Shown here: piece by piece, positions 3,907-53,634 of the stretch | Numbering within the stretch: the stretch's first letter is position 1 | Layout: every line of letters begins with the position of its first letter | From: Kineosporia sp. A_224 | GTDB lineage: Bacteria > Actinomycetota > Actinomycetes > Actinomycetales > Kineosporiaceae | Length of the DNA stretch: 53,939 bases | NCBI RefSeq assembly: GCF_002198655.1 | Contig: NZ_MWLN01000113.1 | Coordinates: 1-53,939, forward strand | Direction: 5' to 3' | Notes under the pieces: generated by a model | Databases searched by the model: none | The model's input: the letters and a program-made list of their open reading frames with translations, nothing else | What the model was told of the DNA's origin: nothing | Translations under genes and position numbers: made by a program

Positions 3907-4326
3907 CGTCATGCCTCCGGTCCTGTGCCGCTTCGAGCCCGCTGTTCCGTGGCCCAAACTTCCACGTGACGCGGCGCAGAGGCCCGGCCCAAGGTCGCGG
4001 CGTTCTCACCGGCACGCGCATGATCGGCTCGAAGCGAACCACCGGAGAGTACGGTCACAAGGCCGTTCGAGTCGGTGACCGCGGATGCAGAAACCGAGTG
4101 CTCACGTCCGGTCATGTGAGCCTGTGTAGGCGTGAGGGGGGGTGGCCGGCCGGTGTCATGGGGCGAGCGCCGCGATCCTAGGACTCCTGGCAGGCTCGGT
4201 GTGGCTGACCTCGAGCGACGATGATCGTGCGGTTTGAGCGGATCCTGTTGTGACCACCAAAGTGACCACTTGACCCGAAAACGATGCATGAAGCCAATGA
4301 TCGACGACAAAGGTGCAGGTCAGACG
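3907..4326. other. Gene-free chromosomal flank with a relic of element-end sequence
   Basis: No convincing gene: the frames that cross it lack coding-type third positions. Near its right end, at 4250-4269, lies a copy of the 20-bp repeat otherwise found in the int 3' end (53501-53520) and inside the left end (4491-4510). The distance from that copy to the tRNA-derived repeat is 57 bp, like the 72 bp between the int copy and the right-end repeat. The stretch therefore resembles the int-side end of another element that once used the same tRNA. Confidence 0.45.
4250..4269. repeat. 20-bp direct repeat, copy A (outside left end)
   Basis: GTGACCACCAAAGTGACCAC, itself two GTGACCAC octamers separated by CAAA. 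Identical copies are at 4491-4510 and 53501-53520. This copy lies on the chromosomal side of the left attachment repeat. Confidence 0.85.
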
Positions 4327-4377
4327 TGCCCCCGAGAGGACTCGAACCTCCGACACACGGTTTAGGAACCGATGCTC
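4327..4377. other. attL: duplicated 3' part of tRNA-Arg
   Basis: Repeats the 3' half of the tRNA-Arg(CCT) gene, from the discriminator base through the T arm and variable loop to the anticodon loop. Identity with 53593-53634 is perfect for 42 bp. Then one A is missing (GGAACCG here, GGAAACCG at the tRNA), after which the short CCGATGCTC stretch agrees again. It lacks the D arm and 5' acceptor strand, so it is not a tRNA gene. Confidence 0.9.
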
Positions 4378-6504: not shown

Positions 6505-8190
6505 GCCTGTCCCGCAGTGGATTCTGGACTTGTCTAAGGTCCCAGAGCACCGCGAAGAGAGGCACTTCCCGCGTGAAGGCTACATCGAGGCGTCCGTGGT
6601 CGGTGGTGACCGCGGACGGGACCGGGGTCGTGTCGCACGCCGGGGTCGCGTTGCTGCGTGAGCTCGCCGAGCGGACCGGGTTGCGCGCCGAGTATGCGCT
6701 CGCGGTCGACGGGGTCCGGTCCCGCGGCGGGGGCCACGATCCGGGGCAGGTACTGGTCGACCTGGCGGTGATGCTCGCCGACGGCGGGGAGGCGATCGGG
6801 GACATCGCCGGCCTCGGGCAGCAGCCCGACTTGCACGGCCCGGTCGCCTCACCACCCACGGCGTGGCGGGTCCTCGCCGGTGTCGACGAGCGACGGCTGG
6901 ACGGCCTGCGCAGGGCCCGGGCGGCGGCCCGGGAACGGGCCTGGCTGGCCCGCGCAGAGGTCACCGGTCGGGTGCTGCCGCCGTCGCGGGCGGCGGGCCG
7001 GGACCTGGACTACGTCGTGGTCGACATCGACGCCACCCTCGTGGACGTCCACTCGGACAAGGAGCTGGCGTCGGCGAACTTCAAGTCCGGGTACGGCTTC
7101 CATCCGATCCTGGCGTTCTGCGACAACACCAACGAGGCCCTCGCGGGCATCTTGCGGACCGGCCGCGCCGGGTCGAACACGGCCGCCGACCACATCGCGT
7201 TGCTCGACCTGGCCCTGGCCCAGCTGCCCGACGCGGCCCGGACGGGACGGATCCTGGTCCGCACCGACGGCGCGGGGTTCTCCCACGCCTTCGTCGACCA
7301 CCTCGTCGAGACCGGGCTGGAGTACTCGACCGGGTACGCGGTCACCGACGACGTCCGCGCCGCGCTCACCCTGCTCCCGGCGTGGGCGTGGACAGCCGCG
7401 GTAGACGCCGATGGTGGCCACCGTGACGGCGCCGAGGTCGCCGAGATCACCGACGTCCTCGCCGAGGTGCAGCGGCTACGCGCCGCCGAACGCCGGCGCG
7501 CCCGCGCGAAACAGGTCGCCCTCACCGGCGCCAAGCCGCCCAAGGCCACCCCACGACGTGAGTGGCCGACCGGGATGCGGGTCCTTGTCCGCCGTGAACG
7601 CCCGCACCCGGGCGCCCAGCTCGACGTCTTCGAGGAACGCGACGGGTACCGCTACCAGGCCGTCGCGACCAACACCCGCGTCGGGCAGCTCGCGTTCCTC
7701 GGAGCCAGACACCGCGCCCACGCCCGCGTCGAGGACCGGATCCGGCAGGCCAAGGACGCCGGCCTCGGACGCCTCCCGTCCCGCGTCTTCGCGATCAACC
7801 AAGCGTGGCTCGAGCTCGCCCTGACCGCCGCCGACCTGCTCGCCTGGACCCAGACCACCCTGCTGGTCGACGATCCATCGCTGGCGCGGGCGGAGTGGAA
7901 GACGATCCGCTACCGCCTCCTGCACTCCGCCGCCCGGATCACCCATGGCAGCCGCCGCGTCTACCTACGCCTCCAGCACGACTGGCCTTGGACCCTCGCC
8001 CTGCAACACGCCTTCACCGTCCTGCGCCGCATCCCCGTCCCGAGCCGCTGACCCAGCATCTGCGCTGCGTCGCCGTCATCGTCCGCGCCCCGCCGCGAGC
8101 CCCGCACTCGTCCCGAGCCCCCTGGAGAACTCGACCACCACGTCGAGCGGCCAGACCTGCCCACGGATCCCAGTCACGGCGACAAGATCA
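6505..8190 (+). mobile_element. IS1380-type insertion sequence (ends approximate)
   Basis: One transposase gene with short flanks. The left end may begin at CCTGTCCCGCAGTGG (6505) and the right end near 8190, where the reverse complement reads CTTGTCGCCGTGACTGG. These resemble each other only imperfectly, so the borders are estimates and no target duplication was identified. A separate inverted pair GGAAGTGCCT/AGGCACTTCC lies at about 6499-6508 and 6561-6570 near the left end. Confidence 0.55.
6573..8051 (+). CDS. IS1380-family DDE transposase
   Basis: 492 residues from a GTG. The core begins with LDYVVVDIDATLVDVHSDKE (first catalytic Asp) and continues ASANFKSGYGFHPILAFCDNTNEALAG. RILVRTDGAGFSHAFVDHL carries the second acidic residue, and the C-terminal part (ARVEDRIRQAKDAGLGRLPS) the Glu. 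This is the layout of IS1380-type transposases, and the length fits the family. The protein appears intact and codon use is high-GC like the host. It interrupts the space between the replication region and the defence island and may have brought or fixed the left border of the island. Confidence 0.9.
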   Translation: MKATSRRPWSVVTADGTGVVSHAGVALLRELAERTGLRAEYALAVDGVRSRGGGHDPGQVLVDLAVMLADGGEAIGDIAGLGQQPDLHGPVASPPTAWRVLAGVDERRLDGLRRARAAARERAWLARAEVTGRVLPPSRAAGRDLDYVVVDIDATLVDVHSDKELASANFKSGYGFHPILAFCDNTNEALAGILRTGRAGSNTAADHIALLDLALAQLPDAARTGRILVRTDGAGFSHAFVDHLVETGLEYSTGYAVTDDVRAALTLLPAWAWTAAVDADGGHRDGAEVAEITDVLAEVQRLRAAERRRARAKQVALTGAKPPKATPRREWPTGMRVLVRRERPHPGAQLDVFEERDGYRYQAVATNTRVGQLAFLGARHRAHARVEDRIRQAKDAGLGRLPSRVFAINQAWLELALTAADLLAWTQTTLLVDDPSLARAEWKTIRYRLLHSAARITHGSRRVYLRLQHDWPWTLALQHAFTVLRRIPVPSR

Positions 8191-8299: not shown

Positions 8300-9391
8300 G
8301 TGACAGGCCAGAGCGCAGAAGCGCCGAGCGTCGACGAGATCCGTGAGGAAGCTCGCCGCAACACCCGAGGCAGGTTTGAGCAGTGGGCGAAGAACCCCAC
8401 CTGCGACGCGAACACTCTCTCGGCCGTCCACAATGTTCGCCTGGACGAGGCAGCGAAGGCTGTTGGCCTCGAGGTGAGTTTCGGTCAGTCGCCATTCGCG
8501 ATTGCCAGAGGGAACCGGTTCGAGGCTGGGTTGTTCCATGACGATGCCCAGAAGCTTCGCCAGGCGTTGGAACGCAAGAAGTGCTTGCCGGACGGATCCT
8601 CGGGACTCCTCGATCTCCGACTCAAGCTCAACGGCGGTACTCGGGTAACGACGATCGATCAGGCCCTTCGGAAGACCGAAGACTGGCTTCGGCGTATCGC
8701 TGCCGACCCTGCATCGGCTGAGTCGATCGTCGCGGCGCCAATGATCAAGATCCCCAAGGGCGTGATTCTCCCCGAGGCGCTCCTCATCATCGACGCGGTC
8801 ACTGTGACGACCACGGTTGATGGTCGGCCGCGGGTGACGGTCGGCGAGGTCAAGGTCTTTCCCGACCGCGGCGGACACACCGACCCCCAGCAGCTCGCCT
8901 CCGCGCGCGCCCAAGCCGGCGTCTACGAGCACGCGATGCGGCTCGCTGTTGACGCCCTCGGGCTTACTGACGAAATCGAGATCTCGACCCACGGGTTCCT
9001 CGTCTTCACCTGGCCGGGTTCGAACTCACCGTCCGTCCGCGCCAATGAAGACCTGACCTATCAGGCCATCCGCGCCGAGCGCGGATTCGATCGGTTGGAG
9101 CAGGTCGCTCTCGGAGTGGTCCGCGACGATGACTTCTCTGCAGATAACCCCGCGTTGATCAAGCGTGTGCTCGATGCGCCTACGGACTACTCGGAGGCCT
9201 GCTTGTCCTTCTGTGACCTGGCGCCACGGTGCCATGCCAGAGCCACGGCGGCAGACGACCCAATCCTCCTCGGCGGTGAGGTCGCCCGGTTCCTCGGCGA
9301 GACCACCATCTCGCGAGCACTCGAGCTCATGGCCGGGGTCGAGCCTGCCGACGACCGCGAGGCAGACCTCCAGCGCCAGTTGGTCGGCTAA
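8300..9391 (+). CDS. Cas4/RecB-like PD-(D/E)XK nuclease with Cys cluster
   Basis: 363 residues from a GTG with GGAGG 6 nt upstream. Residues about 68-78 (ARGNRFEAGLF) match the first helix motif of RecB-type nucleases. An Asp in LLIIDAV and GEVKVF (about 180-186) give the D…ExK catalytic set. Cysteines at about 35, 301, 305 and 311 (CLSFCDLAPRC) are placed like the 4Fe-4S ligands of Cas4 and AddB, one N-terminal and three C-terminal. First gene of an operon: it overlaps the next gene by 1 nt (TAATG). Predicted role: DNA cleavage or end processing together with the helicase encoded two genes on. No full-length family assignment; the system is probably antiviral by context. Confidence 0.7.
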   Translation: MTGQSAEAPSVDEIREEARRNTRGRFEQWAKNPTCDANTLSAVHNVRLDEAAKAVGLEVSFGQSPFAIARGNRFEAGLFHDDAQKLRQALERKKCLPDGSSGLLDLRLKLNGGTRVTTIDQALRKTEDWLRRIAADPASAESIVAAPMIKIPKGVILPEALLIIDAVTVTTTVDGRPRVTVGEVKVFPDRGGHTDPQQLASARAQAGVYEHAMRLAVDALGLTDEIEISTHGFLVFTWPGSNSPSVRANEDLTYQAIRAERGFDRLEQVALGVVRDDDFSADNPALIKRVLDAPTDYSEACLSFCDLAPRCHARATAADDPILLGGEVARFLGETTISRALELMAGVEPADDREADLQRQLVG

Positions 9392-10959
9392 TGACTTCAG
9401 TACGAGCGATCGCTCGCAAGTTGGAAGCGTGGCAGGCCGGTCGTCCGCTTCAGCGGTACGACACGATCCACCACGCGATCATGCCGCCCGATCAGGCCAT
9501 GATCGTCGCCTTCGTCCGGATGGCCGGTGAGTCGCGGCCCTGGGGCATCGCCTGGGGCACAGTCGGCTCGCAACCACGCATCGAGTCCGTGCCCGACGGC
9601 CGTGTCCGCGACGACGTCGCCGTCCTCTGCGCGACGTTCGCGGAGGAGCTGCTGGAGCACCTTCGTGTGCACAACTGGACCTTCGACCCGGTTCCTCAGA
9701 AGCCCGAGCTGGGGGACTTACGTCAGGTCTGGCTGCCAAACGGCCAGCACATCGCGATGCTGCACCAACTCAGCTACACCTACTCGCAGACCAAGTTCGG
9801 CGGCGAGAATCAGGACATCCTCCGTGCTCTGGGGCGCGTTGCCGGCTGGATGTTCCGCGACACCTCGCGGGTCGGCAACCAGCATGTCATTAGCGCAAGC
9901 CAACTCTTGGGCGACTCATATGTGTTCCCCGCTCAGGATGCCCGCACTGCTCACCTTGGGTACCAACTCGCATGGCTTACCACTCAGGGTGACCGTGACG
10001 CCCGATTGTTGGCAGCAACAGAAGCTGAGGGTCTCACCGTCTCCCCAACGCTCGATCCGACGCTTGAGCGCGATGACCTCAGTGAGCTCGTGACCGCGTG
10101 GCAGGAAGGTCGCCGCGAAGGCGGTGACGTCAGCGAGGCCGCAGGCGCGATCTCCGCCATCTTGCACGAGGAGTTGCTGCGTCGCTGGAAGCTGACGGAG
10201 CAGGCATATGACCTGATGGCCAACAACGACCGGCCGATGAATGGTGGCGTCGGCGAACTCGTGACGAAGGCACACGCTGAGTTCTGGTTCCAGCACCAGC
10301 GGATCGAGCTTCGCCTCAACGACCCAAGCCAGGGCCCTGCCTTTGTTGCCCATCCGGAGACCGACTTCCACGGCTCCGCGGCTGCTTCCCGATACCTCAT
10401 TCACTCCGCAGCCGACGAGGCGTACGTCGGCTATCTCATCCACGACGACCCAGCGCTGTTCCGTGAGGCACTTGACGACGGCCGCGCCTTCGAATCCCAC
10501 GTGGTTGGGGTGTACGACGTTGGGGTCGGCCGATCGACCGTCCCCCGATGGGTAGTCCGCCTGGACCCGACGCTGCCGCACCGACTCCGCGAGAATGCCC
10601 GAGTGGCTCCCCACGGCTCCCGGGGACATGAGGCCACCATTGTCGAGATCGGCGCGACAGACGGCGATCTTCTGGTGACGGTGGAGTGGACCGGTCGGAA
10701 GACCAAGCCGCTTCTCGGGCCGATCATGGCGAAGCCCGCCGACAAGGCGTGGGTTGGGGTCGATGTCGCCTTCGTCCAATCGGATGCCGCCAGCCTCACA
10801 CAGCGGCGAAGCCAGCGCGTCTGGTCGGCCGCGGATGGCCCCGGCGCGTGGCTTACGCATGGCAAGGCATCCGCGCCGATCGAGATCAGCGGCGATGACG
10901 GTGCCACCGACCTCGTCTTCGATGATGTCGCCCAGATCGCCGGGGAGGTGACGGTATGA
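9391..10959 (+). CDS. Unknown 522-residue protein of nuclease/helicase operon
   Basis: 522 residues; ATG overlaps the upstream stop and its own stop overlaps the downstream start (ATGA). I recognise no family. The N-terminal ~350 residues are mixed alpha/beta with no clear catalytic motif. The C-terminal ~130 residues are beta-rich (RGHEATIVEIGATDGDLLV, TVEWTGRK) and look like the small barrel (1B) domain that precedes motif I in Upf1/DNA2-type SF1B helicases. As the next gene starts almost directly at motif I, this protein may be the detached front half of such a helicase (inference). Tight coupling to both neighbours implies a joint complex. Confidence 0.7.
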   Translation: MTSVRAIARKLEAWQAGRPLQRYDTIHHAIMPPDQAMIVAFVRMAGESRPWGIAWGTVGSQPRIESVPDGRVRDDVAVLCATFAEELLEHLRVHNWTFDPVPQKPELGDLRQVWLPNGQHIAMLHQLSYTYSQTKFGGENQDILRALGRVAGWMFRDTSRVGNQHVISASQLLGDSYVFPAQDARTAHLGYQLAWLTTQGDRDARLLAATEAEGLTVSPTLDPTLERDDLSELVTAWQEGRREGGDVSEAAGAISAILHEELLRRWKLTEQAYDLMANNDRPMNGGVGELVTKAHAEFWFQHQRIELRLNDPSQGPAFVAHPETDFHGSAAASRYLIHSAADEAYVGYLIHDDPALFREALDDGRAFESHVVGVYDVGVGRSTVPRWVVRLDPTLPHRLRENARVAPHGSRGHEATIVEIGATDGDLLVTVEWTGRKTKPLLGPIMAKPADKAWVGVDVAFVQSDAASLTQRRSQRVWSAADGPGAWLTHGKASAPIEISGDDGATDLVFDDVAQIAGEVTV

Positions 10960-12260
10960 GTCTCGACGTCATTGACGAGGAGTACGCCAAGCTGCGTAAG
11001 GACCTCACCATCTACATCTCCGGCGGGGGCCGGCTTGCCGTCGTTAAAGCTCCACCGGGATCGGGCAAGACGCACACCGTCATCGAGGTTCTGTCGGCCC
11101 TGGCCGCGGGCGGCATGCAGATTGCCGTGGCCGCCCAGACAAACAGCCAGGCCGACGACATCTGCCTGCGATGGGCGAAGGAGCACCCAGACTTGCGGGT
11201 GGCTCGTTTCTCCAGCAGTGGGCTCCGGGCGCCCGACGGTTTCCCGGCGAGCATTCTGTGGGTGACGGACAAGAAGGAGTTGCCGCACGGACCCGGAATT
11301 ACCGTCGCGACGACGGCCAAGTGGTCCCTCACGGACCTGTCTGCCCCGTATGACCTGCTCGCGATCGACGAGGCCTGGCAGATGAGCTGGGCAGACCTGA
11401 TGCAGTGCGCACTCGTCAGTGCAAAGTTCCTGATGATCGGTGATCCGGGGCAGATCCCGCCAGTTGTCCCCATTGATGTACGACGCTGGGAGACCTCGCC
11501 ACGTGCGCCACACGAGGCAGCGCCGGAGGTCGTACTCGCGGAACCGACCTTGGAGTCAGTCCGCTTCGTTGGGTCGTTGCCGGCCTGCCGGAGGCTTCCG
11601 AACGAGTCCGTCGACTTCGTGAAGCCCTTCTACGACTTCGACTTCGAGGCGTACGTCGCCGTCGGGGCCCGGGGCCTGCAGCTGTCTAGCCCTTGGGGCG
11701 ATGCGCTCGCGGCCGGCAGACCGCTCGCACTGACCATCCCCACTCCGGACCACGGACCGCCGATCGAGGTCGATCACGAGATAGCTGCTGCAACGGCGAA
11801 GGTCGTCGGCGAGCTGCTTGGAGGAGGGACAACGCTGAGGTTCGGCGACGAGAAACGGCCACTCACGCCTGCCGACATCGGCGTCACGAGCAGCCACCGC
11901 GTCATGAACTCGGCGCTCTCTGCTGCCCTCGGGTCGTGGGCCTACCAAATTCGAGTCGACACGCCGGAGCGCTGGCAAGGGCTCGAGCGGCCAGTGATGA
12001 TTGCCGTTCACCCCTTGTCAGGCGTCGCCGATCCGTCGGCGTTCGACCTGGAGACGGGCCGCCTCTGCGTGATGGCCTCCCGGCACCAGGTCGCGTTCAT
12101 CATGCTGACCCGCGATCACGTGGGGGAGACGTTGCGCAACTATGTTCCGAGTGCGGAGCAGGCGCCAGGGCGACCCGACACCGTCGGTCGAGGACACGAC
12201 GCTCACCTCAAGTTCTGGACTCAACTTGAGAACGCAGGAAGCGTCGTGCCGCTCACTTGA
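10956..12260 (+). CDS. SF1-type DNA/RNA helicase core (Upf1/DNA2-like)
   Basis: 434 residues; GGGGAGG 7 nt upstream, 4-nt overlap with the previous gene. Motif I APPGSGKTHT (about 31-40), motif II LLAIDEAWQ (about 131), motif III GDPGQIPPV (about 165), then a second RecA fold with WQGLERPVMIAV (motif V region) and MASRHQVAFIMLTRD (motif VI). The walker A sits unusually near the N-terminus, with no room for the 1B barrel found in Upf1-like enzymes. Its 3' end overlaps the convergent UvrD-RecB gene by 8 bp. Expected to be the motor acting with the Cas4/RecB-like nuclease. Confidence 0.75.
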   Translation: MSLDVIDEEYAKLRKDLTIYISGGGRLAVVKAPPGSGKTHTVIEVLSALAAGGMQIAVAAQTNSQADDICLRWAKEHPDLRVARFSSSGLRAPDGFPASILWVTDKKELPHGPGITVATTAKWSLTDLSAPYDLLAIDEAWQMSWADLMQCALVSAKFLMIGDPGQIPPVVPIDVRRWETSPRAPHEAAPEVVLAEPTLESVRFVGSLPACRRLPNESVDFVKPFYDFDFEAYVAVGARGLQLSSPWGDALAAGRPLALTIPTPDHGPPIEVDHEIAAATAKVVGELLGGGTTLRFGDEKRPLTPADIGVTSSHRVMNSALSAALGSWAYQIRVDTPERWQGLERPVMIAVHPLSGVADPSAFDLETGRLCVMASRHQVAFIMLTRDHVGETLRNYVPSAEQAPGRPDTVGRGHDAHLKFWTQLENAGSVVPLT

Positions 12261-15009
12261 GCTTTGCGGCGCCGCACACCGTCTTCACGTCGCAGGCCAC
12301 ACACTTCGACCTCTCCGGCTTTGGCGTGAAGTCGCGCTTCCTCAGCAACCCAGCTGCCTCGGTCACGGTCTCCTCGGCCTGCTTCACCGACTCTTCGGTG
12401 ATGTCGACTGTGTGGCGAGTGGTCTTGCTCATGTCGTGGATGAACGCAGCTCCCACGGTGAGGCCCTCGCGGCGTCCGGCGTCCGCGTAGACCTGCAGTT
12501 GGAGCGGGTGGATCTCTCCTCCGGTGGCGGTTTTGTAGTCCACGATGGCGAGGTTGTCGATCACGCCGTCGTGCTCGTCGTAGATGACGTCGGCGCGCCC
12601 GCTGACCACCACGCCGTCGAGGTACAGCTCGAACGGTCGTTCAGTGGCCCAGGTCCGTCTGATGTCGTCCTGGTTCTCCTTGACGTATTTGAAGACGAGC
12701 AGGCGGGCTTTCTCGCGCATCTCCTTGTGAGCCGCCTTGTTGGCGAACGGCAGGAAGAAGTCAGACGTGAGGAGATCGTTGATCTGCTTCGGCGTCGGCA
12801 GCTTCCCAGTCGCACGAGCGTGCTCGGCGATGACGCGCATGATGTGGTGCACCGCGTTGCCGTACCCGATCTCGGACTTCACCGGGGGCATGAACCCAAG
12901 CTCGTTGCGCAGGAGGTACGACTGGGGACAGGTGATGTACGCCTCGAGTTCTGAGTAGCTCACCGCAAGGTCGGGAATCTCGATGCCCCGCGGTTCGGCT
13001 TCCGTTGGTAGCCCGGCGCTGGACGCGAGCGCCTGAGCCTCCAGGATGTACGGCGAAGCCTTCGTCGCGTTCTTGGTGACCTTCGAGTGCGACGACAGTG
13101 ACACCCAGTCGCGAGCGCGGGTTAGCGCCACGTAGAACAACCGGCGCTCCTCGGCGTCTGAGCCCTCATAGCGAGCAGCCTCAAAGAGATCGCGGGGGAC
13201 GAGCCAATCCTTCACGCGGCCCGAACGGCTGGACGGGAACCGCCCCTCGGTGAGGGAGGGCAGGAACACCACGGGCCACTCCAAGCCCTTCGCCCCGTGG
13301 ACGGTGCCTAGCGCGACACCGTCCCCGAGCAGATCCTCCTCGCCGTCGAATCCGTCGTAGCTGCCCGTGGCATAGTTGACGAGGAGCAAGGCGAAGTTGC
13401 GGTAGAACCACTCGTTGCCGACCGCTCCGCCGACCTGTTCGGACGGGTTCTCGGGGTCTCGCCGAGAACGCCGAGTGACCGACTCGTAGTCGGCCAACAC
13501 GTTCGTGAAGCGGGCGAGCGTGCCCAGGCGGTTGCGCTGCTGAGCGTCCGAGAGGTCCCACTCCGAGATCCGGAGCAGCACCGTCAGGTCGTAGAACTCC
13601 CGGACGAGGCTCGGGTCGAAGTCCGGCGGGTCCTGCGTCGTCTTGGACTTCCACCTGATCAGGTGGCCCTGCAGCTTCTGCATGTCTTCGTTGCTGAGCC
13701 CGAAGACGCTCCGATAGTCCTCAAGCAGGTCAGGCAGAAGAGTCTTCTCGCGCTTGATGAAGCGCCCCGGTGCCCAGTCGACGCCTGAGAGCCAGGAGAA
13801 GGTCTCGCCAAAGACCGCGGCTTCGGGCTGTTGGAACAAGCCGGTCCGACCGCCGGGTTGGACAGGAATCTTCGAGATGTCGAGAGCATCGAGGATTCTC
13901 GTGTAGGCGTTGCGGCCTCGGACGAGGATCGCGATGTCCTGGTAGCGCACGCCCTGCGCGTGGAGCGCCTCGATATCGAGGGCGATCGCATCGGCCTCGT
14001 CCTGCTCGGCGTCGTGGCCGACCGCGATGGAGACGGCGGGCCCGGCGTCCGCTCGGAACAACCCCATCTCCTTCACAAGGCGCCCTGGGATCGACTGCGC
14101 GAAGCCGTTTGCGAGCTGCACGATGCCGGGTCGCGATCGGCGGTTGATCAGGAGGCTGAATTGGGCGACGCCGGGATAGCGGTCCTTGAAGGACACGATG
14201 TTGTCGACATTGGATCCGCGCCACTGGTAGATCGCCTGGTCGTCGTCACCCACCACGACGACGTCGGCGGTGCCGTGGGGCTTCGAGAGCAGGCGGATGA
14301 GTTGCTCCTGCGCCGGGTTGACGTCCTGATACTCGTCAACGATCAGGTGCTTGAGGTCGGCGGTCACAGCCGCGCGGATCGTGGTGTCCTCAAGTGCGCG
14401 CACCGCCTCGACGATCTGCGTGCCGAACGACATGAAGCGGTAGCCGTCGAGCATCGCGTAGTAGAGCTCGGCCGACTCGCGGAACGGGCTCTCGGGCAGA
14501 TCCTCGACCCGCATCAACTCGTTCTCGACGATGTCGATGTTCTCCTGGAACGCGGTGATCCCTCGGAACAACTTCTCGCCGGCGTCCAAGCGGCGAAGCC
14601 TCAACCGATTGGCCTCCCGATACAGGAGGTTGGTGAGCTGGTTCGGGTCAAGGGGTGTGTACGTCTCGTACTTGGCCACGTAGGTCTGCAGAAGCCGGAA
14701 GCAGTAGCCGTGGATGGTGCCGACGTACAGCCTCCCGAGCTGATCGGTGGCAGTGTCGCCCATCTTGGCCGTCACCCGCTCCCGGATGCGCTCCTTGAGC
14801 TCGGCTGCCGCCTTCTCCGTGAAGGTGAAGGCCACGATCGATTCAGGGGCTTCACCGTCGGCCATCAGCGAAGCGACCCTCTGAGACACGACCTCGGTCT
14901 TGCCCGACCCGGCCGCCGCGATGATCTGGACGTGCCCGCCCCTGTGGGCCACCGCGGCCGCGGCATCACCCTCGAGCGTAGGGATTGTGTCGGTACGTTC
15001 TGCTGACAT
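12253..15009 (-). CDS. UvrD-type helicase fused to RecB-type nuclease (AddA-like)
   Basis: 918 residues. UvrD/PcrA motor: motif I AAAGSGKTEVV (about 31), motif Ia FTFTEKAAAELKERI, motif II IVDEYQDVNPAQ (about 233), GDDDQAIYQWRGS, motif V TVHGAKGLEW (about 576) and motif VI FYVALTRARD. The C-terminal PD-(D/E)XK domain has GNAVHHIM, an acidic Asp in GRADVIYD and VDYKTATGG (about 823), and ends with CVACDVKTVC, cysteines as in the AddA/AddB-Cas4 group. It is shorter than housekeeping AddA or RecB (about 1100-1200). The 99-bp gap to mod forms a divergent promoter region. Probably part of the defence cluster rather than the host recombination enzyme. Confidence 0.8.
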   Translation of the reverse strand: MSAERTDTIPTLEGDAAAAVAHRGGHVQIIAAAGSGKTEVVSQRVASLMADGEAPESIVAFTFTEKAAAELKERIRERVTAKMGDTATDQLGRLYVGTIHGYCFRLLQTYVAKYETYTPLDPNQLTNLLYREANRLRLRRLDAGEKLFRGITAFQENIDIVENELMRVEDLPESPFRESAELYYAMLDGYRFMSFGTQIVEAVRALEDTTIRAAVTADLKHLIVDEYQDVNPAQEQLIRLLSKPHGTADVVVVGDDDQAIYQWRGSNVDNIVSFKDRYPGVAQFSLLINRRSRPGIVQLANGFAQSIPGRLVKEMGLFRADAGPAVSIAVGHDAEQDEADAIALDIEALHAQGVRYQDIAILVRGRNAYTRILDALDISKIPVQPGGRTGLFQQPEAAVFGETFSWLSGVDWAPGRFIKREKTLLPDLLEDYRSVFGLSNEDMQKLQGHLIRWKSKTTQDPPDFDPSLVREFYDLTVLLRISEWDLSDAQQRNRLGTLARFTNVLADYESVTRRSRRDPENPSEQVGGAVGNEWFYRNFALLLVNYATGSYDGFDGEEDLLGDGVALGTVHGAKGLEWPVVFLPSLTEGRFPSSRSGRVKDWLVPRDLFEAARYEGSDAEERRLFYVALTRARDWVSLSSHSKVTKNATKASPYILEAQALASSAGLPTEAEPRGIEIPDLAVSYSELEAYITCPQSYLLRNELGFMPPVKSEIGYGNAVHHIMRVIAEHARATGKLPTPKQINDLLTSDFFLPFANKAAHKEMREKARLLVFKYVKENQDDIRRTWATERPFELYLDGVVVSGRADVIYDEHDGVIDNLAIVDYKTATGGEIHPLQLQVYADAGRREGLTVGAAFIHDMSKTTRHTVDITEESVKQAEETVTEAAGLLRKRDFTPKPERSKCVACDVKTVCGAAKLK

Positions 15010-15108: not shown

Positions 15109-16938
15109 ATGAGCGACGAGGTGGCGAAGATCGAACTGGACTCGCCGGATCTGGCGGCTGAGAAGTTGGCAGCCTTCCAGGACCTGTTCCCTGGGGTGAT
15201 TGCCGATGGCGTCCTTGACGCCGGTCGGCTGGGAGAGCTGCTCGACACCGAGGTTGCGGCGCCGGCGGACGGGCGCGAGCGGTTCGGACTCATGTGGGCC
15301 GGCAAGCAGGAGGCAGTGCGCTCGTTGCTGGCCCCGAGTCGCGGTGCGCTGCTGCCCGAGTTTGACAAGTCGACGAACTTCGATGAGGCCCGCCACACCT
15401 TCATCGAGGGTGACAACCTCGAGGCGTTGAAACTGCTGCAGAAGGCCTACAACGACAAGATCAAGTTGATCTACATCGACCCGCCTTACAACACCGGAAG
15501 CAACGACTTCATCTATCCAGATGATTTTTCCGACACGCTCCGTGCCTACCTCGAGTACAGCGGTCAGCTCGACAAGCAGGGCAACCGGAAGTCATCCGGT
15601 GCGGATACTGCCGGTCGTAGGCACAGTCGCTGGCTGTCGATGATGTACCCCCGCCTTGTTCTGGCTCGGAACCTCCTCACCCAAGACGGCGTCATCTTCA
15701 TCTCGATCGATGACAACGAGGTGGCCAATCTTCGCGCTCTGATGGACGAGATCTTTGGGCCGGAGAACTTTATTACGTCATTCATCTGGGAGAAGCGCAC
15801 GACCCGCGAGAACCGGCGAGCCTTTTCGATTTCCCACGACTACCTGTTGTGTTACGCACGGGACAAGACTATGTTTGAGGCGATTCGAGGTCTGCTGCCT
15901 ATTACAGCCGAGGTAGAGGATCGATATTCGAATCCCGACAACGACTACCGCGGCGTATGGCAGTCCGTCTCCCTGAACGCGCAGGCCGGGCATGCGACGA
16001 AGTCCCAGTTCTATGAACTCACAACGCCAGGTGGCCGAAAACTCTGGCCGCCGAAGGGACGTTGTTGGACCGTTACGGCTCCCCGCCTCGAAGAGCTGAT
16101 AGAGGATGGACGGATCTGGTTTGGAGCCGACGGGACTAATGTCCCGCGCCTAAAGCACTTCCTTTCGGAGTCGCGCCAGGGCCTAACCCCGCACACGTTG
16201 TGGCGGGCTGACGAAGTGGGGACGAACGACGCCGCCAAGAAAGAGCTTCTGGAGCGGGTCGAGTTCTCCAGTTCCGAGAGCGTTTTTGATACACCGAAGC
16301 CAACCAAGTTGATTCGACACCTCTTGGCGCTAGCAACGAAACCCGATACCGGCGACCTGGTCCTCGACTTCTTCGCAGGCTCCGGCTCGGCGGCAGACGG
16401 CGTTCTCCAACAGAACGCAGCAGACGGTGGCAACCGCCGGTTCATCATGGTGCAACTTCCGGAGCCGACCGGGTATGACGACTACCCGCTGGTTTCGGAC
16501 ATCACCCGGGCGAGGATCGCCTCAGCTGCTGAGGACGTGGCGCCTGACGCTGGCATTCGCTCGTTCCGCCTGAGCGAAAGCTGCTTCCGCGATGCGACCA
16601 CAGCTGACCCGCAGGATCTCTTCGACCTGCGCGAGTCGACGCTCGACGACGGCGACCATGTGATGGAGGAGCTCGCGGGTGAGGTGCTCCTAAAGGAGGG
16701 TGTCGCACTCGATGCCGAGTGGGCCCGCGACAAGGCTGACCTCGCTGAGGTGATTTTGGCCGATGGTGTCGCCGTCGTTCTGAGCCTTGAGATCACTGAG
16801 GCAGTTGCCAGCGCTGCCATCGCTCTCAAGCCTCGCGTTCTTGTCTTCCTCGAAGACGGCTTCGCGGGACGCGACGCAGTCAAGACCAACGCATTCACGA
16901 ACGCCAAGAACCTCGGCATCACGGTGAAGACCGTCTGA
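15109..16938 (+). CDS. mod: Type III restriction-modification DNA methyltransferase (Mod)
   Basis: 609 residues; ATG with GGGAG 4 nt upstream. Beta-class amino-methyltransferase order: catalytic motif IV LIYIDPPYNTGSND (residues 124-127 = DPPY), the target-recognition region in the middle (about 210-390, visibly less GC-rich), then the AdoMet-binding motif LDFFAGSGSAADG (about 420). Mod gives sequence specificity and N6-adenine methylation and forms the Mod2Res complex in type III systems. It overlaps res by 1 nt (TGATG). The recognition sequence cannot be deduced. Codon use in the middle is more AT-rich than the flanks, consistent with exchange of the specificity domain. Confidence 0.92.
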   Translation: MSDEVAKIELDSPDLAAEKLAAFQDLFPGVIADGVLDAGRLGELLDTEVAAPADGRERFGLMWAGKQEAVRSLLAPSRGALLPEFDKSTNFDEARHTFIEGDNLEALKLLQKAYNDKIKLIYIDPPYNTGSNDFIYPDDFSDTLRAYLEYSGQLDKQGNRKSSGADTAGRRHSRWLSMMYPRLVLARNLLTQDGVIFISIDDNEVANLRALMDEIFGPENFITSFIWEKRTTRENRRAFSISHDYLLCYARDKTMFEAIRGLLPITAEVEDRYSNPDNDYRGVWQSVSLNAQAGHATKSQFYELTTPGGRKLWPPKGRCWTVTAPRLEELIEDGRIWFGADGTNVPRLKHFLSESRQGLTPHTLWRADEVGTNDAAKKELLERVEFSSSESVFDTPKPTKLIRHLLALATKPDTGDLVLDFFAGSGSAADGVLQQNAADGGNRRFIMVQLPEPTGYDDYPLVSDITRARIASAAEDVAPDAGIRSFRLSESCFRDATTADPQDLFDLRESTLDDGDHVMEELAGEVLLKEGVALDAEWARDKADLAEVILADGVAVVLSLEITEAVASAAIALKPRVLVFLEDGFAGRDAVKTNAFTNAKNLGITVKTV

Positions 16939-19682
16939 TGGCTGTAGAGATCAAGTTCGACGCCAATCAGCAGTTTCAGCGCGATGCGATCGACAGCGTT
17001 GTTGAACTGTTCGCCGGCCAGGACTCGATGCAACAGGGCGTGGCGGTTCCCGGGTTCGGCGAGGAGGGCACACTCGAGTCATTCCAGGAGCTCGTGTTCG
17101 GCAACTCGCTGGCGCTGGCACCTGAGACTGTTCGCACGAACCTTCGCCGTGTCCAGGACCGGCCGACCGACCTTGACGATGGCTCTGTCGCGCCGGCAGT
17201 TGCAGAGCCCCTGCGCCGCGCACTCGAGTCTGGGGAGATGCCCCTCGAGTTCTCGGTCGAGATGGAGACGGGAACCGGCAAGACGTACGCATACCTGCGC
17301 ACCATCGCTGAGTTGCACCGCCAGTACGGCTTCAGCAAGTTCGTCATCGTTGTACCGAGCGTGGCGATCCGCGAAGGCGTCCTGTCCAGCCTCAGGCTCC
17401 TTCGGGAGCACATCAGGGACATCTACGACGGGCTGCAGTATGACTACTACGTCTACGACAGCAACGCGCTCACCCGCGTGCGCCAGTTTGCGACGGCGTC
17501 CCACCTCCAGATCATGGTCATCAACATCGCCGCGATGACCGGGGACGCGAACAACCGCGTGATCCACCGACCCACCGACGCGATGAACGGTTACGCGCCG
17601 ATCGAGTTCTTGCGGGCCTGCCGGCCCGTCGTCATCATGGACGAACCGCAGAGCCTGGACGGGCCGACTCAGAAGCCAGCCATCGACGAGCTCCAGCCTC
17701 TGTTCCGCGTGGGGTACTCAGCGACCCCGCCGACTGAGAAGAGCGGACTCCCCAAGGCCCACCTTGTCTACCGTCTGACGCCCGTGGACGCCTATGCGGC
17801 CAGGCTGGTGAAGAGGATCGGTGTCCTTTCGATCACGAAGGACTCCAATCTCAACGAGGCGTACGTGGAGATCGCGAAGATCAACGCCACCCCGACGGGC
17901 GTGACCGCAACTGCGGTTATTCACAAGGCAACCCGCCAGGGAACGAAGCCCACTCGCGTCACCCTCCGTAAGGACGACGACCTCTTCGAGCTGAGCGGCC
18001 GCCGCGATCTGTACCAGGGCTGGTCGGTCGAGGACATTCACGCCGAGGCAGGCGTAGTTGAGTTCGGTAACGGCCGGAAGGTTGCTGCTGGGTCGTCGAC
18101 CTCCGAGGCAGATGAGCAGCAACTGCGGCTCATGCTTCGCCAGGCGGTCGAGAGTCACTTTGAGAAGGAACTCCAGCTCCTTCTGCAGAAGCGGCGCGGT
18201 CAGATCACTTCGCGGATCAAGCCTCTGACGCTCTTCTTCATCGAGAAGGTTGACCACTACGCCCCTGACGACGCCAAGCTACGCGTCTGGTTCGAAGAGG
18301 AATACGCGTCGCTTCTCAACGACGGGCGATTCCGTGCGTTGACTATGCCCGCGGTCAAGGACGTGCACGAGGGCTACTTCGCCGTCACTGCGCGAGGCGT
18401 CGCCAAGGAGGCTCGCGCGGACTCCAAGGATGCGGCTGATGCGTTCGAGCGCATCATGCAGCGGAAGGAAGAGCTTCTCGGATTCGATGAGCCGCTACGG
18501 TTCATCTTCAGCCACTCCGCCCTCGCCGAGGGTTGGGACAACCCGAACGTCTTCACGATCTGCAACTTGCAGGACGGCAAGTCGCCCATGCGCAAGCGAC
18601 AGCAGGTTGGTCGCGGGCTTCGGCTTCCTGTCATGGAGAACGGCGAGCGTTGCCACGTTGAAGAGGTCAATCTGTTGACCGTAATCGCCAAGGAGTCGTT
18701 CTCTACGTTCGCTTCCGCGCTCCAGAAGGAGATCGAGGAGGAGACGGGGGTTGCATTCACGGGCCGAATCGTCAACCTTCGCGACAGGAAGAAGCTGCGT
18801 CTCAAGGAGGAAGTCCTCGGGTCGCCCTTGTTCGCGCAGCTCTGGGAGCGGATCTCGCCGCGGACCTCGTACAAGCTCCACTTCTCCTCGGACGCTGTCG
18901 TGGCTGACGCAGTCACGCGGATCAACGCACTGCCAGACCTGGAGCCGGTCAAGTTCCGGGTCTCGAAGGACGTTGTGGAGATGGGCGCGGCCGGACTTGC
19001 CGGCTCAGACCTTCGCGACCGCGGCGCGATCGAGCTCGTCGGCGAACGCAAGGTGCCGGATGTCGTGGGGGAGTTGTGCCGAAGGCTTCCCCTTTCGCGG
19101 GCAACCATCGTGCGCATCCTTCGCGGATGCGATCGGTTGGACCAGGTGGCGCTGAACCCCGCGGTCTTCATCGACGAGGTCGCCGAATCCATCAACCACG
19201 CGCTGTACAACCAACTCACCGACGGCATCGTCTATCAGCCCGCCGGTGAGTCCTGGTCTGTGGAGCTTTTCCGCGAGCGTCATCAGGACGAGACCGTGGC
19301 GCCGCGGGTCGTCCGAGTCGACAAGAGCGTCACGGATCACGTCGTCTGCGACTCGGACGTCGAGGAGCGGTTCGCCAAGTTCCTGGATGAGCGCCCGGAC
19401 GTCCCCCTGTTCGTGAAGTTGCCAGAGTGGTTCAAGATCCCGACGCCGTTGGGCAACTACAACCCTGACTGGGCGTTTGTCCGTGAAGAGCCTGCGGGTC
19501 AGTTCCTGTATCTCGTGCGCGAAACGAAGGGCGGCTCAGACCTCGAGAAGCTCCGGTTCGAAGCCGAAGGTTGGAAGATCAAGTTCGGCGAGGCGCACTT
19601 CAACTCGTTGAAGGTCGACTACTTCTTCGGGCACGACCCCGAGGTTCTCGTTGAGCTCTCGCCCGAATATTCGGCGTCATAG
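16938..19682 (+). CDS. res: Type III restriction-modification helicase-endonuclease (Res)
   Basis: 914 residues. SF2 helicase motifs: VEMETGTGKTYAY (about 109), IMDEPQSLDG (DEPQ box, about 234), VGYSATPP (motif III), then HSALAEGWDNPNVFTICNL and KRQQVGRGLRLP (motifs V-VI). The C-terminal endonuclease has an Asp in NPDWAFV and LVRETKGG (about 860), the PD…ExK set. Size is close to the usual ~970. Requires Mod for target recognition and ATP to cut DNA with two unmodified sites. The gene ends only 3-4 bp before an insertion sequence, yet the end of the protein looks complete. Confidence 0.92.
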   Translation: MAVEIKFDANQQFQRDAIDSVVELFAGQDSMQQGVAVPGFGEEGTLESFQELVFGNSLALAPETVRTNLRRVQDRPTDLDDGSVAPAVAEPLRRALESGEMPLEFSVEMETGTGKTYAYLRTIAELHRQYGFSKFVIVVPSVAIREGVLSSLRLLREHIRDIYDGLQYDYYVYDSNALTRVRQFATASHLQIMVINIAAMTGDANNRVIHRPTDAMNGYAPIEFLRACRPVVIMDEPQSLDGPTQKPAIDELQPLFRVGYSATPPTEKSGLPKAHLVYRLTPVDAYAARLVKRIGVLSITKDSNLNEAYVEIAKINATPTGVTATAVIHKATRQGTKPTRVTLRKDDDLFELSGRRDLYQGWSVEDIHAEAGVVEFGNGRKVAAGSSTSEADEQQLRLMLRQAVESHFEKELQLLLQKRRGQITSRIKPLTLFFIEKVDHYAPDDAKLRVWFEEEYASLLNDGRFRALTMPAVKDVHEGYFAVTARGVAKEARADSKDAADAFERIMQRKEELLGFDEPLRFIFSHSALAEGWDNPNVFTICNLQDGKSPMRKRQQVGRGLRLPVMENGERCHVEEVNLLTVIAKESFSTFASALQKEIEEETGVAFTGRIVNLRDRKKLRLKEEVLGSPLFAQLWERISPRTSYKLHFSSDAVVADAVTRINALPDLEPVKFRVSKDVVEMGAAGLAGSDLRDRGAIELVGERKVPDVVGELCRRLPLSRATIVRILRGCDRLDQVALNPAVFIDEVAESINHALYNQLTDGIVYQPAGESWSVELFRERHQDETVAPRVVRVDKSVTDHVVCDSDVEERFAKFLDERPDVPLFVKLPEWFKIPTPLGNYNPDWAFVREEPAGQFLYLVRETKGGSDLEKLRFEAEGWKIKFGEAHFNSLKVDYFFGHDPEVLVELSPEYSAS

Positions 19683-19685
19683 GTC

Positions 19686-21045
19686 CTGAAGGGTGCCAGT
19701 TCACGATTGTGGCGCTGACCAGCGCTGATGCAGGGTGAGATGATCACGGTCGTGGTGTTCCAGACGGTCGGGTTGCTGGTCTTGCGGCGGCTGGTGGGGT
19801 GGCTCGGGTTGGGGTCGTCTCCGGACGCGAAGGACGTCGAGCTCGCCGTTGTGCGTCACCAGCTGGTCGTGCTGCAGCGTCAGGTCGCCCGGCCGCGCTA
19901 CCAGCCGTCGGACCGGCTCGTGCTGGCGTGGCTGGCGTCGATGCTGCCGCGGGAGCGGTGGTCGGTGTTCCTGGTGACTCCGACGACGCTGCTGCGTTGG
20001 CACCGGGAACTGGTCGCGCGCCGCTGGACCTACCCGCACACCGGCACGCGGCGCGGCCTTGCCCCGGAGGTCGTGGACCTGGTGCTGCGGTTGGCGGGGG
20101 AGAACCCGCGGTGGGGTTACCAGCGGATCGTCGGCGAAGCCCGCCGGCTCGGCGTCACTGTGTCTGCCACGTCGGTGCGCAGGATCCTGCGCCGTCACGG
20201 GCTGACACCAGCGCCGCGCCGGCACGGCGGACCGACCTGGGTGAGCTTCCTGTGGGCCCAGGCGGCAGGGACGCTGGCATGCGACTTCTTCAGTGTCGAG
20301 ACCATCGGCCTGACCCGGTTGTACGTGCTGTTCGTGATCGAGGTCGACCGGCGCCGCGTGCACGTCCTGGGTGTCACCGCTCACCCCACAGGGGAGTGGG
20401 TGACCCAAGCCGCACGGAACCTGCTCCTGGATCTCGGCGAGACCGCGGAGCGGTTCCGGTTCTTCGTCCGGGACCGGGACACGAAGTTCACGGCGGCGTT
20501 CGACGCCGTCTTCGCCGGCGCCGGGATCGAGGTGTTGAAGACCCCGCCGCGGGCACCGCAGGCGAACGCTTTCGCGGAGCGGTGGGTCCGCACGGTGCGG
20601 GCCGAGTGCCTGGACTGGGTCCTGCTCGCCGGGCCGCGACACCTGCAGCGTGTCCTGACTGTGTACGTCGAGCACTACAACAGGGTCCGGCCCCATCGGA
20701 GTCTGCAACTGGCTGCACCGGTCGAGGCATGCGCGCCAGCTGCGGCCGGCGACCGGGTCGTGCGCCGAGACCTTCTCGGCGGTCTCCTCCACGAGTACCA
20801 CCGCGCCGCCTGAAGCCCCCGGCTCGCGGCGTTCTTCGAGAGATGCCTGTTGGCTCCATGCCCCAGGTCGGCACCGCGGAACGTCGCCCGGCCTCAGCGC
20901 AGGGTTCAACTCGCCGTCGACGATCCCGCCCCGGCCCCGACGGTCAGCAAGTCACGCGCGCGCGCCTTCGCAGTCGTCGGCGGCCCCCGATGACCCGCCA
21001 ACTCGCGCCGCCAATCTCGCCGAATCGCGAAATGGCACCCTTCAG
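19686..21045 (+). mobile_element. Insertion sequence, 1.36 kb, with inverted ends
   Basis: Left end CTGAAGGGTGCCAGTTCACG (19686 on) and right end, read on the minus strand, CTGAAGGGTGCCATTTCGCG (from 21045) match at 18 of the first 20 positions and continue with partial agreement (ATT, GGCG). One transposase gene lies inside. No target-site duplication is obvious in the 4-5 bp on each side. It sits between the stop codon of res and the Gabija-like operon. Confidence 0.8.
19740..20813 (+). CDS. rve-type integrase-core transposase
   Basis: 357 residues from the ATG at 19740, after AGGGTG; an in-frame ATG at 19728 is possible. An N-terminal helix-turn-helix region (ENPRWGYQRIVGEARRLG, VSATSVRRILRRHGL, about 110-155) is followed by the DDE catalytic core: Asp in TLACDFFSVET, Asp in FFVRDRDTKFTAAF and Glu in APQANAFAERWVRTVRAECLD, then YNRVRPHRSL. 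This is the IS3/IS481-like retroviral-integrase fold as a single uninterrupted frame. Appears intact. Confidence 0.88.
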   Translation: MITVVVFQTVGLLVLRRLVGWLGLGSSPDAKDVELAVVRHQLVVLQRQVARPRYQPSDRLVLAWLASMLPRERWSVFLVTPTTLLRWHRELVARRWTYPHTGTRRGLAPEVVDLVLRLAGENPRWGYQRIVGEARRLGVTVSATSVRRILRRHGLTPAPRRHGGPTWVSFLWAQAAGTLACDFFSVETIGLTRLYVLFVIEVDRRRVHVLGVTAHPTGEWVTQAARNLLLDLGETAERFRFFVRDRDTKFTAAFDAVFAGAGIEVLKTPPRAPQANAFAERWVRTVRAECLDWVLLAGPRHLQRVLTVYVEHYNRVRPHRSLQLAAPVEACAPAAAGDRVVRRDLLGGLLHEYHRAA

Positions 21046-32138: not shown

Positions 32139-32567
32139 GTGCCGCAGGCACGCAGGCGAGCACGGGACGCGGTCCCGCGTGAAGCGAGCATCATGTTCCG
32201 GCTCTCCGGCGAGGAGCGGGACCGGCTTAGGACAGCCGCCGGCCTGCAGGGCCAGGCGCTCGGGCGGTTCGTCGCCGAGGCGGCGCTCGATCGGGCGGAC
32301 GGCATCCGGCGGCGGTTCGCTCGCCTGGCCGTCCCGCCGCGTGAACTGCTCGCCGTCCAGATCGAGCTTCGTGAGGTTGCCCGCCAGGTGCGGGCGGTCG
32401 GTGTCAACGTCAACCAGGTGGCGGCGGTCGCTAACTCCGAGGGTGTGCCGCCGGCGAACGCCACAGCGGTGCTCGCCTTCTGCGGGCGGGTCCTCGGGTC
32501 GGCGTCCGCTGCCCTCGACCGGGTCGACCGCCTGGCGGCCGCCCTCGGGGACGAGGCGAGCGAGTGA
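32139..32567 (+). CDS. mobC: MobC-like relaxosome accessory protein
   Basis: 142 residues from a GTG with GGGGAGG 6 nt upstream. A basic N-terminus and a ribbon-helix-helix-like start (REASIMFRLSGEERDRLRTA) are followed by helices containing ELREVARQVRAVGVNVNQVA, the hallmark segment of MobC proteins. MobC binds at oriT and helps the relaxase open the strand. The stop overlaps the relaxase GTG (GTGA). Confidence 0.8.
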   Translation: MPQARRRARDAVPREASIMFRLSGEERDRLRTAAGLQGQALGRFVAEAALDRADGIRRRFARLAVPPRELLAVQIELREVARQVRAVGVNVNQVAAVANSEGVPPANATAVLAFCGRVLGSASAALDRVDRLAAALGDEASE

Positions 32568-51884: not shown

Positions 51885-51968
51885 AACCTCGCCAGTGCAA
51901 CCCCTCTCACAGCTCTCCCCGAGTCGCTACTCCCGAGCGCTCCCCGGCCGCACAGAAGGGCACCTGCC

Positions 51969-52202
51969 ATGTCGAAGAACCAGCTCAGCCAGGAGGAGCT
52001 GCTCGCGCTCCCGGTCACGGTCGACATCGTCACCGCCGGTCGGGCGTTCGGGATCTCCCGGGACACGTCGTACGAGCTGCTGCGCCGCGGGGAGTTCCCG
52101 TGCCGCACCCTCAAGGTCGGGCGGCTGCGGCGGGTCCCGCGGGCAGAGATCCTCCGGGCGCTCGGCGTCGAGGAGAGCGCCATCACGCAGGCCTCGGCCT
52201 GA
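51969..52202 (+). CDS. xis: Excisionase-like helix-turn-helix protein (Xis)
   Basis: 77 residues. TVDIVTAGRAFGISRDTSYE, LLRRGEFPCRTLKVGRLRRV is an HTH_17/Xis-type fold. It lies 28 bp before the integrase gene, the usual xis-int order, so it is the best candidate for the recombination directionality factor. Ribosome binding site is weak. Confidence 0.8.
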   Translation: MSKNQLSQEELLALPVTVDIVTAGRAFGISRDTSYELLRRGEFPCRTLKVGRLRRVPRAEILRALGVEESAITQASA

Positions 52203-52230
52203 CGCACCGGAACCGCATCGAGGAGCGCGC

Positions 52231-53568: not shown

Positions 53569-53592
53569 TAGGTCAACGGCCTCTTGATCTTG

Positions 53593-53634
53593 TGCCCCCG
53601 AGAGGACTCGAACCTCCGACACACGGTTTAGGAA
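53593..53634. other. attR: 3' part of tRNA-Arg
   Basis: 42-bp perfect match to 4327-4368, covering the tRNA from its discriminator base to the anticodon loop. The tRNA remains complete on this side. The strand exchange must lie within this segment, most likely at the anticodon-loop end as in other tRNA-targeting elements. Confidence 0.88.

Follow-up and report, generated by a model that had tools for sequence, protein, structure and literature searches.

Dna2 combines its activities in a single chain, in the order nuclease, barrel on a two-helix stalk, and helicase, and in both Dna2 and AddB an iron-sulphur (Fe-S) cluster staples the N- and C-terminal extensions of the nuclease, according to one published account (PMC4716839). 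A stretch of 53,939 nt from Kineosporia sp. A_224 (contig NZ_MWLN01000113.1, forward strand; the whole stretch is called the window here) contains an operon of three genes, nuc, mid and hel, whose products recall these parts as separate proteins: a nuclease, a protein without a named family and a superfamily 1 (SF1) helicase motor. With a probability of roughly 55%, they are interpreted as a three-subunit Dna2-type nuclease-helicase that processes DNA ends and that, in the branch to which the window belongs, is likely used in defence.

An earlier note on this DNA, made from the sequence alone, had claimed that the three genes overlap by 1-4 nt, and they do: nuc and mid share 1 nt (TAATG), and mid and hel share 4 nt (ATGA). 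Compared with the corresponding genes of an Arthrobacter locus (L014), nuc, mid and hel are 69-74% identical, and the differences lie mostly at codon position 3 (0.58-0.60 per codon versus 0.14-0.18 at position 2). Because the differences concentrate at the third codon position, all three are taken to be real genes. The motor alignment, searched against the genome collection, found at least 584 relatives, the best 80 of which are referred to as the named loci. The three genes occur together in 72 of these 80, and five of the other eight (L018, L040, L051, L079 and L089) end at a contig end. The spacing between nuc and mid is within 20 nt in either direction in 59 of the 63 loci with settable starts (48 overlap), and that between mid and hel lies between -20 and +60 nt in 62 of 67 (43 overlap). 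A neighbourhood survey had been suggested as a check on co-occurrence in defence islands; the order nuc-mid-hel is conserved, but the family is not confined to such islands. In Hamadaea tsunoensis (L060, 7729-9861), nuc and mid are fused into one polypeptide of 710 aa.

The motor, hel, matches the Pfam family AAA_11 (1.8e-13), and the SF1 motor motifs are present in all 78 aligned hel sequences, including that of the window. When a hel profile built from six sequences was compared with the PDB, DNA2 came first (6.1e-12), followed by SMUBP2 (2.2e-10) and UPF1 (8.9e-07), while the RecD entry 3e1s was far weaker (1.5e-4); by this search the closest similarity of hel is to SF1 motors of the Dna2/Ighmbp2/Upf1 type. 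The match to DNA2 runs from profile position 39 to 392 and covers only residues 649-1015 of the DNA2 chain. Motifs I, II, III, V and VI start at residues 32, 138, 162, 334 and 374 of 434, which leaves 31 residues before motif I and 106 residues from motif I to motif II; in the five other sequences of the profile alignment, motif I is preceded by 37-69 residues, given the chosen starts. Because there is no room for a barrel either before motif I or between motifs I and II, hel is concluded to lack a 1B domain of its own. The description of the helicase as truncated and as beginning almost at motif I is therefore accurate, and the possibility that it had its own 1B domain, which the earlier note had named as damaging to its case, found nothing to sustain it in the limited DNA2 match and the short motif spacing. 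Since hel does not itself carry a barrel and two-helix stalk ahead of motif I, the operon is not assigned to the Dna2 family.

The product of nuc has the PD-(D/E)XK pattern D...E-x-K together with a QxxxY motif. Residues E75, D165, E183, K185, Q205 and Y209 are each kept in 47-48 of 49 aligned sequences, among them that of the window. All 49 keep four cysteines, of which C35 is N-terminal and C301, C305 and C311 are C-terminal. The C-terminal cysteines are spaced C-x3-C-x5-C in the inspected rows and C-x2-C-x5-C in the Hamadaea fusion. This layout is as expected of a putative Fe-S staple joining the two ends of the nuclease domain. The window nuc has no match in Pfam, NCBIfam or PADLOC; the best relevant Pfam family among the 49 members is PF12705, at 0.0027 at best and in 10 members, and a nuc profile gave chance matches only among PDB sequences. 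The name Cas4/RecB-like, given previously, is justified by the motifs, although no curated family cut-off is reached.

No family in Pfam, NCBIfam or PADLOC matches mid, with weak chance matches only among its 63 members, and the profile of these 63 sequences had no convincing PDB match (best E 0.76). The three families were also aligned by hhalign with a template of 1077 columns made from 20 single-chain TM0106/Dna2-like nuclease-helicases of the window's class and phylum. Here nuc fell on columns 152-361 (score 42.5, the match including the region after the cysteine cluster), the C-terminal part of mid (about residues 345-430) on columns 662-750 (31.9), and hel on columns 821-1052 (167.9), that is, on successive, non-overlapping segments in the order of the genes. 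Reversed-template controls scored 14.4 for nuc, 19.2 for mid and 26.1 for hel. The C-terminal part of mid alone scored 28.9, while 40 column shuffles gave no more than 15.3 and ten other or reversed templates no more than 21.9. Decoy families were drawn from neighbouring genes by a simple rule, so that some may be wrong frames; 25 were formed, of which 3 were dropped as matching nuc, mid or hel, and the remaining 22, run for nuc, mid and the C-terminal part of mid, reached maxima of 24.3, 22.1 and 20.6, respectively. As a barrel reference within the phylum, TIGR00376 was found in 2 of 60 genomes, neither above cut-off, which was too few. A 1B-barrel-like segment at the end of mid had been suspected from its beta-rich appearance; the C-terminal part does fall best on the stalk and barrel columns, above all 22 decoys, but at HH-suite probabilities of 3-18%. 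It is proposed as a candidate stalk and beta-barrel (1B) subunit on this alignment. The N-terminal part of mid had been suspected by eye to match the exonuclease-like stretch of the TM0106 template, a candidate that was rejected (14.9 versus 19.3 for the reversed template).

The nuc-mid fusion in Hamadaea, the conserved order and overlaps, the collinear alignment and the kept motifs are among the reasons for reading the operon as a Dna2 split into three, an interpretation that is supported but not proven. The idea itself comes from the earlier note, and it holds for the motor class, the nuclease motifs and the collinear template match, but less well for mid, whose match is weak and of which about 320 residues have no counterpart. 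The three proteins would assemble into a Dna2-like tunnel, in which mid would supply the barrel and stalk, along with its N-terminal region, and, by analogy with Dna2, connect the SF1B motor with the Fe-S nuclease. From its family, the motor would be expected to translocate 5' to 3'; it would pull single-stranded DNA through the assembly in that direction and feed the 5'-ended strand to nuc for cutting. Such an assembly may resect or degrade DNA from ends that arise by restriction, breakage or replication.

In a tree of 40 motors three groups stand out. The window type comprises 4 rows (100/99) and a third branch 5 rows (99/96), and the other 31 rows form the last group (100/99); the tree tool flagged L016 and the third branch for their long branches. 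The window-type members are the window, the Arthrobacter locus L014, an Acidimicrobiia assembly (L015) and a Gemmatimonadota assembly (L016, Candidatus Palauibacter). The third-branch motors (L100-L104) are 33-36% identical to the window hel. The loci L100 and L101 also include an AAA_5/MoxR-type ATPase together with a DUF2201 metallopeptidase/VWA protein, and L102-L104 showed neither. A mid-like protein matches the profile in L100 only, and weakly (full E 2.9e-5); in L101 and L102 its counterpart was recognised by eye, from position and C-terminal pattern, and is not significant in the profile search. Several neighbours in this branch share an N-terminal stretch resembling PAGxxEGGQFxTxxRxExxVxL (four genes in L102, 1563-13725, and one in L101, 633-1433).

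In window-type loci the operon is accompanied by genes of DNA metabolism and of restriction or candidate defence (Table 1 for the window). The UvrD-nuclease gene, with Pfam matches to UvrD-helicase (1.9e-52), UvrD_C and PDDEXK_1 (1.6e-23), is convergent with hel and overlaps it by 8 nt; the arrangement is identical in L014 and L015, although the frame is interrupted in L015. It follows the operon in three of the four window-type loci and is a probable partner of it. Restriction or candidate defence genes surround the operon in all four: type III restriction in the window and L015, and GmrSD/HEC-05-like and PDC-S37-like genes in L014 and L016. The Gabija pair of the window is a neighbouring defence system and not a part of the operon. 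In L016 (195-2605), ZorA/ZorB-like genes directly precede a PDC-S37-like helicase-nuclease, which is followed by nuc-mid-hel. A transposase also lies directly upstream of nuc in L014 (26-1381); its likeness to the window transposase was judged by eye.

Table 1. Features of the window that bear on the nuc-mid-hel operon and its setting
Feature	Position	Strand	Basis or remark
IS1380-family transposase	6573-8051		NCBIfam; directly upstream of nuc
nuc: PD-(D/E)XK nuclease of Cas4/AddB/Dna2 type, 363 aa, GTG start	8300-9391	+	motifs
mid: 522 aa, without named family	9391-10959	+	open reading frame (ORF)
mid segment, about residues 345-430, matching the stalk/1B barrel stretch of single-chain helicases	10423-10680	+	hhalign 28.9-31.9
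hel: SF1 motor of Dna2/Upf1 type, RecA1 and RecA2 only, 434 aa	10956-12260	+	Pfam, PDB profile search
UvrD-type helicase with C-terminal PD-(D/E)XK nuclease (UvrD-nuclease), 918 aa, AddA/AdnAB-like architecture	12253-15009	-	Pfam
Type III methyltransferase (mod)	15109-16938	+	PADLOC MTase_III 8.6e-166; relative follows cassette in L015
Type III restriction enzyme (res)	16938-19682	+	PADLOC REase_III 1.8e-228; 70% identical relative in L015
402-aa protein without Pfam, NCBIfam or PADLOC family	19701-20909		between type III restriction genes and Gabija
Gabija GajB	21219-22901	-	PADLOC 2e-210
Gabija GajA	22905-24515	-	PADLOC 1.2e-218
Relaxase	32564-34183
Type IV coupling protein	42127-43914
Integrase	51895-53568		beside tRNA-Arg

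The 3' part of a tRNA-Arg(CCT) gene is repeated exactly and directly over 43 bp at 4326-4368 and 53592-53634. On the basis of these att repeats, the integrase, the relaxase and the coupling protein, most of the window is recognized as an integrative conjugative element of about 49 kb, of which the window-branch operon is cargo. The cassette lies in a stretch of lower GC content (0.60-0.69 at 8-26 kb, versus 0.69-0.75 in most of the rest, in 2-kb windows). A second low-GC stretch (0.59-0.64, measured in the same way) is found at 44-49 kb; an ORF of 825 aa without a Pfam family (45200-47677) lies in a part of the element with a GC content of about 0.59.

The mid profile (63 rows) matches 70 of 394 genomes of the class, and mid is present in 99 of 101 sampled genomes of a genus taken as Streptomyces, both counts referring to mid alone. 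The genus is so named because six of its loci best match named Streptomyces loci, at 80-94% DNA identity. In view of this near-universal presence, the notion that the whole family is a defence system was rejected as too narrow. An extra gene, here called up (about 265 aa; the one tested has no Pfam family), is often found upstream of nuc: a small profile (E 1e-6) detected it in 18 of the 80 named loci, which is probably a lower bound, and it is present in each of 14 accessory loci. The latter are extra copies of the operon (L171-L184) from 13 genomes of the Streptomyces-assigned genus. Ten of these 14 loci have an SbcD-like gene divergent from up-nuc-mid-hel, in most cases accompanied by an SbcC-like one. 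Eight contain both genes, L171 has SbcD plus a short SbcC piece at the end of the stretch, and L174 has a partial SbcD; neither gene was found in L176, L177, L181 and L182. Each of the SbcD and SbcC profiles is based on two sequences, which come from L171, L172 and L173, so these three loci match by construction. Two of the SbcD-like proteins matched the calcineurin-like phosphoesterase family of Pfam, and one SbcC-like protein matched SMC_N and the SbcC/Rad50 Walker B family. The name SbcD was chosen because of the phosphoesterase family, the pairing with an SbcC-like gene and the start of the sequence. SbcD and SbcC are homologues of Mre11-Rad50. Within the stretches examined, neither the window nor L008-L013 has an SbcC or SbcD neighbour.

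Some accessory copies are subtelomeric: 21 kb separate them from both chromosome ends in G934, and the distance to an end is 6.8 kb in G974 and 15 kb in G348. Subtelomeric copies occur at both ends of one chromosome of 10.7 Mb. Adjoining one subtelomeric copy is a gene for a superfamily 2 (SF2) helicase with three helicase-associated (HA) stretches (L173, 3796-6042); Streptomyces telomere-linked helicases can resemble a protein of this kind.

A role at DNA ends is proposed for the operon partly because SbcD(-SbcC)-like genes adjoin it in 10 of 14 accessory loci and the UvrD-nuclease in three of four window-type loci. In the window branch, the UvrD-nuclease would add the opposite polarity, in a logic like that of RecBCD or AddAB, and on an integrative conjugative element beside type III restriction and Gabija the set may finish off DNA that has already been cut. 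More broadly, the family may be a modular bacterial counterpart of eukaryotic resection machinery, with a core operon in nearly all Streptomyces and three kinds of partner: SbcCD in accessory, partly subtelomeric loci; the UvrD-nuclease, giving a bipolar, RecBCD-like set, in mobile defence islands; and MoxR-VWA proteins in the branch without detectable nuclease. This wider picture is tentative and is held with less than even confidence.

Several findings weigh against a Dna2-type end-processing machine with a defensive use in the window branch. The HH-suite probabilities of the template alignment are low for nuc (12-38%) as well as for mid, and the N-terminal 320 or so residues of mid match nothing. 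As for the nuclease, in the fused protein of Hamadaea the E and K of E-x-K are lost (VEIKSF is aligned with VGIRTY) while the three C-terminal cysteines are kept. It follows from the loss that cutting is not always needed, and a structural role of the domain is suggested as well; moreover, nuc was not detected in the five third-branch loci. Two Micromonospora motors stand without an adjacent nuc or mid, L066 having neither gene and L036 having mid about 9 kb upstream. As for partners, the UvrD-nuclease is absent from L016. The sole other close copy among 296 genomes (54% identity, in G152) has no operon on its 17.7-kb contig, and pieces of nuc, mid and hel lie on other contigs of that genome. 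Both cases weaken the candidacy of the UvrD-nuclease as an obligate partner. None of the 80 named loci has an SbcC or SbcD neighbour within the stretch examined, and the neighbours of one core Streptomyces locus (L053), judged by eye and with no family search, are not defence-like. Of the window-type loci, L015 and L016 come from metagenome assemblies and could be mis-binned in taxonomy. Finally, 57 pattern matches for the motor in viral contigs included no relative, and phage and plasmid records, searched with mid alone, held no relative of mid.

Some of these findings would be accommodated if the operon were a DNA repair or replication module that trims ends for recombination or for lagging-strand maturation, and if the conjugative element carried the set for its own maintenance or transfer. 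Such a role would agree with the almost constant presence of mid in Streptomyces-assigned genomes, with the ordinary-looking neighbours at L053, with the SbcD/SbcC-like genes adjoining accessory copies and with the position of the window cassette inside an integrative conjugative element. It does not, however, account for the restriction or candidate defence genes around all four window-type loci, and in the order sample the motor (E 1e-20) is absent from 2 congeners and 10 further family genomes listed. Window-type motors also occur in distant taxa yet form one clade, which fits an accessory module better than a housekeeping one. A pure repair module is accordingly considered somewhat unlikely, and a defensive use of the three-subunit machine in the window branch is preferred.

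A different possibility concerns mid, which might be an unrelated adaptor, for example a sensor or a single-strand-binding protein, serving a minimal, barrel-free motor similar to RecD2. Helicases of the RecD2 branch are described as lacking barrel and stalk in PMC4716839, a RecD entry does appear in the PDB list for hel, and both the low HH-suite probabilities for mid and its long unmatched region would be natural for such an adaptor. Yet hel is much closer to DNA2 than to RecD, the best match of mid lies on the stalk and barrel columns of the template, above the 22 decoy families and the 40 shuffles, and a mid-like protein persists in the third branch (weakly matched in L100, seen by eye in L101 and L102). 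An unrelated adaptor is therefore judged unlikely, and mid is retained as the candidate barrel subunit of a split Dna2. An RNA-directed system, in which an Upf1-like motor and a nuclease act on transcripts in the manner of CoCoNuT, is very improbable: Upf1-family motors do include RNA helicases, and the CnuH helicases of CoCoNuT resemble UPF1 and DNA2 and bear an OB-fold on a stalk (PMC11090510), but nuc has RecB/Cas4-type motifs, the best motor match is DNA2, the adjoining genes code for enzymes that act on DNA (the UvrD-nuclease, SbcCD-like proteins and type III restriction), and no RNase or RNA-binding domain reaches cut-off in nuc, mid or hel in Pfam, NCBIfam or PADLOC.

If the split-Dna2 interpretation is correct, a nuclease-helicase known as one chain would exist in bacteria as separable parts, each activity of which could be switched or lost, as the changed E-x-K of Hamadaea and the branch without detectable nuclease would illustrate. 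Nearly all Streptomyces would then carry an unstudied operon for DNA-end processing, a Dna2-like machine would be linked to bacterial homologues of Mre11-Rad50, and mobile defence islands would gain a module that has had no name so far.

Each part of the set resembles a known part, but its three-polypeptide organisation and its partners were not found described in the open-access literature searched, nor was the nuc-mid-hel set as such; most subscription papers lay outside this search. The earlier note could not match the set to a named defence system, and PADLOC 2.0.0 agrees: no system was matched, nuc and mid hit 0 families, and hel gave weak matches only. CoCoNuT CnuH, Hhe, Mokosh MkoA/C and PDC-S37 have an SF1 motor of a class broadly shared with hel, but the PADLOC models of Hhe, MkoA/C and PDC-S37 span 1112-1911 positions, whereas hel has 434 aa and scores weakly against them (30 bits at best, for MkoA). 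AddAB, RecBCD and AdnAB are comparable in that the operon together with the UvrD-nuclease would provide both motor polarities and two RecB-type nucleases; they differ in that the second motor, hel, is of Dna2 type and not RecD. The UvrD-nuclease itself is far below the cut-offs for AddA (123 bits versus 708), RecB (122 versus 696) and PcrA. The SbcCD-associated accessory loci of Streptomyces have the same order nuc-mid-hel, but they also have up and, in 10 of 14, the divergent SbcD/SbcC-like genes, neither of which adjoins the operon in the window branch. Single-chain RecB nuclease-helicases of the TM0106/TIGR03491 type are matched collinearly by the profiles of nuc, mid and hel; they are unlike the operon in being one chain with an apparent extra exonuclease stretch (seen by eye) between nuclease and barrel. 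The window nuc matches neither TIGR03491 nor any other NCBIfam model, and a separate TIGR03491 copy is present in the window's own genome (G000:C86). Dna2 differs from the operon in that the latter consists of three polypeptides, with about 320 N-terminal residues of mid for which no counterpart was found and a barrel whose identity is weakly supported, but the two have in common the motor class, the Fe-S-type nuclease motif set and the order nuclease, barrel/stalk, motor, and the SbcCD neighbours of the accessory copies recall end resection.

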